Shown here: positions 4,972 through 64,000 of the stretch, one piece after another | How the letters are laid out: each line of letters starts with the position of its first letter | How positions within the stretch are numbered: position 1 is the first letter of the stretch | Source: Halorubrum saccharovorum DSM 1137 | Lineage (GTDB): Archaea > Halobacteriota > Halobacteria > Halobacteriales > Haloferacaceae | Length of the DNA stretch: 64,000 bases | Direction of reading: 5' to 3' | NCBI RefSeq assembly: GCF_000337915.1 | Contig: NZ_AOJE01000070.1 | Location: 1-64,000 of the forward strand | Position numbers and translations under genes: made by a program | Notes under the pieces: generated by a model | What the model was told of the DNA's origin: nothing | Databases searched by the model: none | What the model saw: only the letters and a program-made list of their open reading frames with translations

Positions 4972-5934
4972 CTAGATATAGCCTAGATCTTCCAAATGAT
5001 CTTCCAGGGTATCCTGATTTGTTACAGTGTTTGGCTTTATCGTGGGGCTGTAAGTCTCCTGATCAATTGCGCTTGTTTCTACCCAAGGAACTTTCCGAAC
5101 TACGGGCAAAGGACATCCAATCTGATGTGCATAGAACCCAAATTCACCAAATGCCTCTCCGTGGTCTGCGGTTATTACTGCTTTTTCAGCATTAACATTT
5201 TCCAATAGAACTTCAAGCTCGTCAAGAACGAGTCTAAGATTTTCTATGTAGGATGCCCATGCTTCTTCTTTTGTTATTTTCTTTTCCCGAAGAGAAGTAA
5301 AAACATTCTGTCCGAGACCCTTCTCTTCCCCAATGTGGGGTTCGTGCGGTTGCATATAATGAACAATAAGACGATCTGGGTTCCTTGATCTAGCAACATC
5401 AACTGCACGATCGGTCATAGTTCGAGGTAGTATACAATTCTTCTTTGAGTCTATCCCGTATTTTCTCACTTCATCTAGGTATAGGAAGTCACTTGGATCG
5501 ACGACATCGTAATCTTTTGGACCAAAGGGAAGTGATTGTTTAACTGGTGGTTCTTTCTTTTCTCTAAAAACTGGAGTAATATAGGGGTTCCCACTCACAT
5601 AAGCAGTATCTTGGATCTTATGTCGATATCTTTGTTGAAATGTGAGTGGCATCCACTCAAACGATGTACTACCAACCGAACGGATTGAATTTATTTTATT
5701 TATATACGAATATTCATCTGCAACCTCCTGAATTGCATCAACTCTACACCCGTCGAGAATAATAAGTAGATCCCAGTCACAATCGAAAATATTGGTTCCC
5801 CAAGACTTCCGATTCGTTACAGTTAGTAAAGCACCTACGTAAGCATAATATGCACTTCGAGGTATTCCCATTTTTGGATCATTCTTAGTTCTTCTAACAC
5901 TTTCAGATACCCACTTTCGAAAATTAACTGGCAT
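4972..5934 (-). CDS. Sulfatase / alkaline-phosphatase superfamily protein
   Basis: A 320-residue protein of the alkaline phosphatase-like fold. The metal-site strand is DLLIILDGCRVDAI at about residues 55-68, where the Cys-Arg after the metal Asp may act as the nucleophile position. The second half holds the diagnostic ADHGEAFGE with a following H (FYAHQ). It lacks a canonical CxPxR sulfatase motif, so sulfate ester hydrolysis is not assured; phosphate or phosphoglycerol transfer onto glycans is equally possible. There is no signal peptide, so it should be cytoplasmic. The gene is strongly AT-rich like the flippase and lies in the same island and orientation, next to the MITE. Confidence 0.8.
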   Translation of the reverse strand: MPVNFRKWVSESVRRTKNDPKMGIPRSAYYAYVGALLTVTNRKSWGTNIFDCDWDLLIILDGCRVDAIQEVADEYSYINKINSIRSVGSTSFEWMPLTFQQRYRHKIQDTAYVSGNPYITPVFREKKEPPVKQSLPFGPKDYDVVDPSDFLYLDEVRKYGIDSKKNCILPRTMTDRAVDVARSRNPDRLIVHYMQPHEPHIGEEKGLGQNVFTSLREKKITKEEAWASYIENLRLVLDELEVLLENVNAEKAVITADHGEAFGEFGFYAHQIGCPLPVVRKVPWVETSAIDQETYSPTIKPNTVTNQDTLEDHLEDLGYI

Positions 5935-6176
5935 TAAGCGCTTGTAGACAGTTCTCTAGTATTACTTTTCCTTTTCGCATCCTACATTTCTCAAGATGTA
6001 GTGGAATTAGTTTTGATACCAGAATCAATCATTGTTCAAATAATTATAGATATGATATTTTCTAACCGATCATAACGGTGACGTAGATAACACTTACAAG
6101 TACTTTAACTCTCTCGATATTTCTAGGAACAGTTTCTCCAACCACTATCCAAGCTTCATCGAAGGTTTGTTTACAC

Positions 6177-44592: not shown

Positions 44593-44784
44593 TGCGCGGG
44601 ACCGGATTCGAACCGGAACCAGACGTGCTCGCTTCGCTGCGCGCGTCTGGTAGGGTTCGAATCCTCGTCGAAATGCCTCTCCTCGCGAATTGCTCGGAGA
44701 GATATGCGCGGGACCGGATTCGAACCGGAGGAAGACGTGCTCACTCGCTCCGCTCGTCGCGCGCGACTTCCAGGATTCAAATCC
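44593..44784 (-). repeat. Two hairpin elements repeating the tRNA-Leu 3' end
   Basis: The 24-bp 3' end of the tRNA-Leu gene (44826-44849 on the plus strand) recurs exactly at 44705-44728 and 44593-44616. Each copy is one arm of a large inverted repeat. In the distal element GGATTCGAACC (44604-44614) and CCAGACG (44619-44625) pair with CGTCTGG (44644-44650) and GGTTCGAATCC (44654-44664). In the proximal element GGATTCGAACC (44716) and GGAAG (44730) face CTTCC (44767) and GGATTCAAATCC (44773-44784). The loops share a GC-rich core of the type ACGTGCTCGCTTCGCTGCGCG. They lie directly downstream of the tRNA in its own direction. No gene is visible in 44424-44825. Confidence 0.8.
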
Positions 44785-44825
44785 GCACCTGCTCTCTCGC
44801 TCAGTCGCTACGCTCCTTCGCTCAG

Positions 44826-44910
44826 TGCGCGGGACCGGATTCGAACCGGCGGACCCCTACGGGATAGCGTCCTAAGCGCTACGCCTTTGGCCTGGCTCGG
44901 CAACCCGCGC
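44826..44910 (-). tRNA. tRNA-Leu (anticodon TAG)
   Basis: An 85-nt class II tRNA. The acceptor GCGCGGG pairs with CCCGCGC plus discriminator A, the D arm GCCGAGCCAGGCCAAAGGC follows, the anticodon stem GTAGCG/CGCTAT holds loop CTTAGGA with anticodon TAG, the long variable arm is CCCGTAGGGG, and the T arm is CCGGTTCGAATCCGG. CCA is not encoded. The long variable arm and discriminator A fit leucine; it reads CUA codons. Confidence 0.93.
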
Positions 44911-44979: not shown

Positions 44980-45300
44980 GGCGGCGCGTGCCGCCGAGCG
45001 CCCGAAGGGCACGAGGTGCACGCGCGAGGGAGTCGGCCGGCGCTTGTAAGCGCCGGCCGACGAGGCTGGGGAGGCGTGAGGCTGTGCGGTGCGGGGCGGG
45101 ACTCAAAGGGGCAGTCGCGAGGGCGAAGCACGGCGACGTAAGTACCGCAGCGAGTGAGCGGAGCGAACGAGTGAGGAACGCCACGAGCCGCGCGAGTCCT
45201 CGCGACTGGGGCTTTGGAGGTCTTCGCCGTCGATCCACAGTTACCAATTACGCACTGCCGAGTGGGTGGGGCTTTGAAGATGTACGTCGCCGATCCCACG
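44980..45300. repeat. GC-rich palindromic intergenic repeat region
   Basis: The 392-bp spacer 44911-45302 has no gene. At 45033-45060 lies a perfect hairpin with 13-bp arms, TCGGCCGGCGCTT / AAGCGCCGGCCGA, around GT. Further on, AGTCGCGAGG (45113-45122) is mirrored by CCTCGCGACT (45199-45208). Two imperfect direct copies of GGGGCTTTG-AGAT-like sequence (about 45208 and 45268) precede the endonuclease III stop. The layout looks like a dispersed structured element, perhaps transcribed; copies elsewhere in the genome cannot be tested here. Confidence 0.5.
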
Positions 45301-63847: not shown

Positions 63848-63918
63848 GCGCCGGTGGTCTAGTGGTAGGACCTGAGCCTTCCAAGCTCATGGCCCGGGTT
63901 CAAATCCCGGCCGGCGCA
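63848..63918 (+). tRNA. tRNA-Gly (anticodon TCC)
   Basis: A 71-nt tRNA. Acceptor GCGCCGG pairs with CCGGCGC plus discriminator A, the D arm is GGTCTAGTGGTAGGACC, anticodon stem TGAGC/GCTCA holds loop CTTCCAA with anticodon TCC, and the T arm is CCCGGGTTCAAATCCCGG. CCA is not encoded. It reads GGA codons. Confidence 0.93.
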
Positions 63919-63931
63919 TTTTCTCGAACGA

Positions 63932-64000
63932 AGTGAGAGAAATCGCCGCAGAATTTGAACCCTATCAGTCGCGCGCAGCGAGCGAAGCGAGCGAGCACGT
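63932..64000 (+). repeat. Start of a tRNA-linked hairpin repeat after tRNA-Gly (cut by window end)
   Basis: Directly downstream of tRNA-Gly, GAATTTGAACCCTATCAGTC followed by a GC-rich core (GCGCGCAGCGAGCGAAGCGA and GCGAGCACGT) repeats the layout of the elements beside tRNA-Leu: a T-arm complement, a short stem start, and the same core loop. The matching 3' arm, expected to contain GGGTTCAAATCC, would lie just outside the window. Confidence 0.65.

Follow-up and report, generated by a model that had tools for sequence, protein, structure and literature searches.

tRNA genes of haloarchaea can be followed, on the same strand, by short tandem units that end in a copy of the 3′ end of the tRNA in front of them, and the closest known kind of element is the tRNA-linked repeat (TLR) of E. 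coli. As judged from the genome sequences compared, the strict position of these units, their tRNA-specific tail, their covarying complement, their shared families of inner hairpins, their exchange of modules and their distribution are established. We propose, as an evenly balanced judgement drawn from this analysis, that the elements are archaeal TLRs, which would be trailer units read through from the tRNA, each with its 3′ processing end regenerated. The window, by which we mean the whole 64-kb stretch of Halorubrum saccharovorum DSM 1137 DNA that was analysed, contains two units (121 nt and 112 nt) in tandem 3′ of tRNA-Leu(TAG) on the minus strand, and the beginning of a further unit behind a second tRNA. 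The order within a unit is H1, a complement of the T-loop (the anti-arm), the inner hairpin H2 and a copy of the tRNA 3′ tail, and the features are as follows.

44826..44910, minus strand: tRNA-Leu(TAG), host gene of the array (ARAGORN and Rfam RF00005)
44783..44825, minus strand: H1 of unit 1, type b, beginning CTGAGCGAAGGAGCG and abutting the tRNA 3′ end (sequence)
44776..44782, minus strand: anti-arm of unit 1, ATTTGAA, T-loop complement within the 12-bp outer helix of the alignment consensus (sequence)
44727..44775, minus strand: H2 of unit 1, inner stem GGAAG/CTTCC, core GCGCGCGACGAGCGGAGCGAGTGAGCACGT (sequence, alignment)
44705..44726, minus strand: tail copy of unit 1, 22 nt of the tRNA-Leu 3′ tail, 0 mismatches; identity extends to 24 nt, 44705-44728
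44663..44704, minus strand: H1 of unit 2, type d, stem TCTCTCC/GGAGAGG (sequence)
44656..44662, minus strand: anti-arm of unit 2, ATTCGAA, T-loop complement (sequence)
44615..44655, minus strand: H2 of unit 2, stem ACCAGACG/CGTCTGGT, core GCGCGCAGCGAAGCGAGCACGT (sequence; fold z -2.8)
44593..44614, minus strand: tail copy of unit 2, 22 nt of the tRNA-Leu 3′ tail, 0 mismatches; identity extends to 24 nt, 44593-44616
63848..63918, plus strand: tRNA-Gly(TCC), second unit-bearing tRNA of the window (tRNA search)
63919..64000, plus strand: start of the tRNA-Gly unit with H1, TTTGAA anti-arm and H2 core (element 63954-64018 by pattern)

tRNA-Leu(TAG) ends in the discriminator A at 44826, and CCA is not encoded. 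Its terminal 24 nt, CCGGTTCGAATCCGGTCCCGCGCA, recur at 44728-44705 and 44616-44593 with 0 mismatches each, exactly as the initial annotation of this DNA had stated, and in both units the tail copy indeed forms one arm of an inverted repeat, preceded by an inner stem and by sequence complementary to the T-loop region. The loop core that was said to be present in both holds exactly for unit 2 (GCGCGCAGCGAAGCGAGCACGT), and unit 1 has a longer variant of it, GCGCGCGACGAGCGGAGCGAGTGAGCACGT. H1, which is usually a hairpin and follows immediately on the tRNA and on each tail copy, was absent from that description. No further copy of the tRNA-Leu tail with up to 5 mismatches was found in the whole 64 kb except inside tRNA-Gly at about 63895. 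The tail copy of tRNA-Gly(TCC) lies just past the right end of the window, at offset 91 and with 0 mismatches.

Between 44448 and 44867 the array yields several spurious ORFs on both strands, with GTGFEP and AGPDSNR-like stretches that come from antisense T-arms. Protein coding was rejected as a reading; a conserved frame was not seen, elements are not spaced by multiples of three, and the ORFs are purely mechanical. Annotators should be aware that such arrays give spurious ORFs and can pass for integration scars. Upstream of tRNA-Leu, the minus strand at 45100-45230 has an additional stretch rich in CACTCGTTCGCTCCGCTCACTCG-type motifs, which seem to be frequent between haloarchaeal genes, including sites away from tRNAs.

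The T-loop arms alone make up a two-arm pattern, GATTYGAAYC N20-50 GGTTCGAATC, which matches 42 of 59 relatives (48 of 59 with its TTCAAAT version) and 222 of 341 genomes of class Halobacteria, covering 66 of 81 genera. Reversed and control patterns gave 0 matches in every haloarchaeal genome scanned, so the arrays are not a product of chance. Members of the phylum outside Halobacteria presented scattered single matches close to the control level, and by these matches the feature extends throughout Halobacteria and does not occur elsewhere in the phylum. When named species genomes were considered, 58 of 60 haloarchaeal matches were behind a tRNA, and most non-haloarchaeal matches had no nearby tRNA and look like chance. 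Among the unit-bearing relatives are Halorubrum lipolyticum, H. californiense and H. salsamenti, and units also occur in species of Haloferax other than Haloferax volcanii. With a viral or plasmid vehicle under consideration, phage records gave no match to the two-arm elements and one plasmid matched; the two-arm pattern also matches nine viral contigs.

The position of the elements is strict. In the position test, which covered tRNA genes, 141 of 147 pattern-selected elements were located directly 3′ of a tRNA, 139 of them no more than 400 bp from it and first units usually at a distance of 31-79 bp, and 0 of 147 were located 5′ of one, while the remaining 6 were found behind an intron-containing tRNA, behind tRNA 3′ halves displaced by larger integrations, or behind a tail copy. 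A search for the H2 core without its arms led to the same result, with 33 places, 30 of them directly behind a tRNA on the correct strand; 28 of these 30 have the tail of that very tRNA with up to 4 mismatches, and the other 3 places are behind a tRNA 3′-half remnant or tail copies. The initial annotation had asked whether the core occurs free of tRNA genes, and no such occurrence away from tRNA ends was found in the genomes searched. The first 30 loci represented 11 tRNA species, and the larger set represents more than 20. Of the 44 tRNA genes of Halorubrum saccharovorum, about 13-15 (about a third) carry units, and 198 unit-bearing loci had 1 to 4 tandem units each. In the public genome of Halorubrum saccharovorum, one unit of the tRNA-Val(TAC) array includes an N and Nextera/Tn5 adaptor sequence, so that this array is mis-assembled; the tRNA-Gly(GCC) array also has an N inside.

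A direct repeat of a tRNA 3′ end is the textbook sign of tRNA integration, and elements integrating into tRNAs are common in haloarchaea (PMC3119063, PMC8371274), which would suit a reading of the units as ordinary scars, namely attR sites left in truncated form by elements that had at some time entered the tRNA. We regard this as very improbable and as refuted for the elements in general, in agreement with what the initial annotation had claimed, since unit length is nearly constant at about 80-125 nt, the order of hairpins is fixed, and the units contain neither cargo nor integrase. True scars at tRNA-Leu are 54-57 nt copies running from the anticodon loop, and are 15-39 kb away where positions are comparable. 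A tyrosine-integrase scar was rejected for the same kind of reason, the segments being mostly 60-130 nt, structured, without cargo and unlike true tRNA-Leu scars. Several tRNA 3′ halves (L159, L189, L376, L390 and partial Leu matches) are scars of large elements that used the anticodon loop; existing unit arrays have been carried off behind such displaced halves, and some units now follow these scars.

The tail copy comprises 22 nt, from 2 nt before the T-loop to the discriminator base, and it belongs to the tRNA in front of it. Over 284 units, its identity to its own tRNA was 0.91-1.00 per position, compared to 0.31-0.48 for other tRNAs at most of the informative positions, and 114 of 168 copies were perfect over 20 nt. 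The arm thus changes with the neighbouring tRNA, a point on which the initial annotation had made its interpretation depend. The 5′ edge of the copy is sharp, with 0.95 against 0.79 at position -2 before the T-loop and a drop to 0.43 at -3. In arrays of at least two units the first copy was the more faithful to the tRNA in 29 arrays and the last copy in 6 (p 1e-4). The seven-base complement tracks the T-loop as well, with 131 ATTCGAA complements on TTCGAAT loops, 50 ATTTGAA complements on TTCAAAT loops, and AATTGAA on TTCAATT loops. Extension of the complement past the T-loop in a tRNA-specific manner is weak (3.5 against 3.05 of 6 matches).

H1 and H2 behave as exchangeable modules. The inner hairpins H2 fall into a few families common to more than 20 tRNA species (23 for the H2 families), and identical 43-nt H2 modules were found behind Leu(TAA) and Arg(CCT) tRNAs. 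At tRNA-Leu(TAG), 30 Halorubrum genomes carry 0-3 units, in which six H1 types and seven H2 types form at least 19 of 42 combinations. H1 and H2 thus combine almost freely between related species, which indicates fast turnover of the arrays by module exchange. For example, the downstream flanks of the window, H. lipolyticum and a third sister species are 94-95% identical over 700 bp and the units differ; in Halorubrum lipolyticum the H2 of window unit 2 follows another H1, and type b, the H1 of window unit 1, which is found with other H2 modules at tRNA-Leu(TAG) of other Halorubrum, precedes another H2 in the third species. The breakpoints of exchange are at the T-loop and its complement. Two loci (L241, L244) have no H2, their H1 being fused directly to the tail at TTCGAA, and in a Leu(TAA) unit (L009, 116-182) the H2 between two TTCGAA arms is exactly inverted, reading as the reverse complement of its usual form. 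In plasmid NZ_CP119561.1 of Haloarcula halophila, a cluster of more than 20 tRNA genes includes a tRNA-Cys whose T-arm contains H1 and H2 (about 5930-6075), inserted at GG^TTCGAA without a duplicated tail. This interrupted tRNA-Cys may represent either a broken gene or a state resembling an intron. The plasmid tRNA cluster adjoins a TROVE-domain (Ro60-like) gene.

Because the modular exchange is so fast, we keep, as a possible if tentative alternative, an origin of the units as cassettes at the level of DNA, in which H1 plus H2 would be a non-autonomous micro-element placed and exchanged by a recombinase whose sites are the near-palindromic core of the T-loop (TTCGAA) and the complement of this core, so that the arrays would resemble small-scale integrons or att sites in tandem. 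The sharp 22-nt boundary, the decay of copies from proximal to distal, the H2 modules and families passing between tRNA species, their free combination with H1, the exact inversion and the fusions at TTCGAA, and the plasmid tRNA-Cys are all in line with it. However, no recombinase gene is linked to the elements, and known haloarchaeal integrase sites are unlike them, pleolipoviruses such as Humcor2 having a 13-bp tail (PMC7911831) and the integrase scars at tRNA-Leu running from the anticodon loop. Conserved terminal motifs are absent, with TT, CT, TA, TG and TC among the first bases and no common sequence at the unit ends, and a crossover in the T-loop between tRNAs would swap acceptor strands and damage the recipient tRNA.

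Pairing within the units is supported by covariation. In an alignment of 23 rows from one H2 family, representing nine tRNA species, 96.3% of pair cells were paired compared to 16-46% in slid controls, and 34 cells had changed on both sides compared to 11.3 in shuffles. Distinct 5-bp inner stems had on average 4.28 Watson-Crick pairs, and 2.64 with shuffled partners. Minimum free energy favoured the sense strand for both H1 and H2. In a strand-symmetric count of pairs, H1 had no surplus of G-U and H2 had A-C more often than G-T, which does not favour sense RNA; since the energy comparison supports sense RNA and the count does not, we claim no strand. The wobble test at the variable T-loop position gave no asymmetry either, G loops having 15 T-type complements and A loops 10 C-type ones.

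A symmetric test without a strand-specific pairing signal is also what would be seen if the repeats were a neutral by-product, with replication slippage, hairpin-templated correction and gene conversion in polyploid haloarchaea creating and homogenising them without any function or dedicated enzyme. Such processes would explain the polarity of the arrays, the near-palindromic arms and the loss and inversion of H2 at short repeats, as well as the rapid turnover and the absence of units from many tRNAs. We nevertheless consider this explanation rather unlikely. The H2 families are kept class-wide over more than 20 tRNA species and were not found elsewhere in the genomes searched, and a shared H2 repertoire is not what one would expect from a purely mutational origin, and therefore counts against it; the presence of the same anatomy in E. 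coli is a further point against it.

Returning to the units as archaeal TLRs, the analogy with E. coli makes read-through trailers the most likely reading of them. The units would be transcribed as read-through of the pre-tRNA, and the complement would fold the tail copy into a hairpin, lessening its competition with the real 3′ half of the tRNA. A cut by tRNase Z at the regenerated tail, with subsequent addition of CCA, would then yield a two-hairpin RNA of ~85-125 nt with a tRNA-like end, comparable to E. coli RttR. Recombination and gene conversion with the tRNA would keep the copies identical, most strongly beside the gene. The released RNA might, as a guess, be a sponge or decoy for tRNA 3′-end enzymes or RNA-binding proteins. 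The predicted shielding of the tRNA by the complement was significant and very small (own-acceptor pairing of 0.030, against 0.007 with the complement scrambled), and folding of the complement/tRNA pair was thermodynamically nearly isoenergetic in the single case examined; shielding was rejected as an explanation on account of this tiny effect. T-richness was slightly shifted from the tRNA end towards the last copy, and T-runs did not differ between the two positions, so that the T-tract evidence for a shifted terminator behind the last unit is weakly suggestive.

Integron cassette arrays consist of an IntI-type integrase and attC sites with the R box GTTRRRY. The likeness of the units to them is limited to a hairpin with conserved arms and to proximal polarity, by analogy. 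Tyrosine-integrase att sites of the SNJ2/pleolipovirus type share the direct repeat of a tRNA 3′ end, but their 13-bp copies flank kilobase elements with an integrase and are without such hairpins (PMC8371274, PMC7911831). Casposon or CRISPR-type integration also targets the tRNA 3′ end and forms a repeat with each insertion; in contrast to our units, casposons make 14-bp duplications that reach no further into tRNA-Leu than its final 4 bp, and these elements are characterised by cas1 and terminal inverted repeats (PMC6977970). An insertion of this type, from which a target duplication of 14-15 bp is expected, was rejected as judged by the copy and the unit ends, the 22-nt copy lying inside the tRNA.

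The interpretation given in the initial annotation withstood the refuting conditions that were named there and is partly supported; it overlooked a bacterial class that is already described and has this same architecture. In E. coli, knowledge of TLRs goes back to 1978 (Egan and Landy 1978; Rudd 1999; both as cited in PMC8144298), with 22 repeats at ten loci, one to five per locus, in which the last 18-19 bp repeat the 3′ end of the tRNA or rRNA gene in front (PMC8144298). Three TLRs behind 5S genes are transcribed and processed, and apart from binding data for these three no function has been assigned to TLRs (PMC8144298). No description of such repeats in archaea was found in the literature searched, which does not prove that none exists. 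The TLR kind itself is thus already known, and the archaeal version, its class-wide extent, the tRNA-specific complement and the module exchange are new to us.

Two E. coli RNAs are related in their form. RtT/RttR of the tyrT operon (RF00391) is annotated as a 171-nt RNA from the tRNA end to the exact end of the first tail copy, and has a tRNA-like 3′ end as would a haloarchaeal unit, although it belongs to one enterobacterial operon; its covariance model gave no match in the Halorubrum saccharovorum genome at E up to 1, and the E. coli control was matched. 3′ETS-leuZ is a pre-tRNA trailer released as a small RNA with the role of a sponge (Lalaouna et al. 2015, as cited in PMC8144298), but it is produced by RNase E, and no tail copy or tandem array is part of its description as given there.

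We read the E. coli tyrT/V, argV, argZ, argQ and lysV loci directly, and found tail copies of 18-19 nt. Exact complements of the tail were located within the unit in tyrT/V (GGGGAAGGAT), argV (GGGAGGAT) and lysV (GATTCGAAC), and 12-13 tail nucleotides are paired within the unit in argQ and argZ. The lysV TLR also includes GATTCGAACCTGCA, a complement of T-loop and T-stem in the same form as the haloarchaeal one. We found no sequence homology between haloarchaeal units and E. coli TLRs. A bolder idea, which we hold to be doubtful, is that haloarchaeal and enterobacterial TLRs constitute one cross-domain class of tRNA-parasitic cassettes, in which a dedicated activity would add and exchange hairpin modules at tRNA 3′ ends with polarity; each insertion would regenerate the exact 3′ end of the tRNA entered, and cassettes could thus move between tRNA genes harmlessly. 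Haloarchaeal units offer a way to learn the purpose of tRNA-linked repeats. Both kinds are located behind tRNA genes on the same strand, both occur in tandem (1 to 4 units in haloarchaea) and end in the 3′ end of the upstream gene, and loops of the AGCGAAGCGAG kind are present in both. In comparison, the haloarchaeal copy of 22 nt runs from 2 nt before the T-loop to the discriminator, whereas the E. coli copy of 18-19 nt starts inside the T-loop and includes CCA, and the haloarchaeal complement spans the T-loop itself and follows the T-loop of each tRNA, with modules that are common to more than 20 tRNA species throughout the class.
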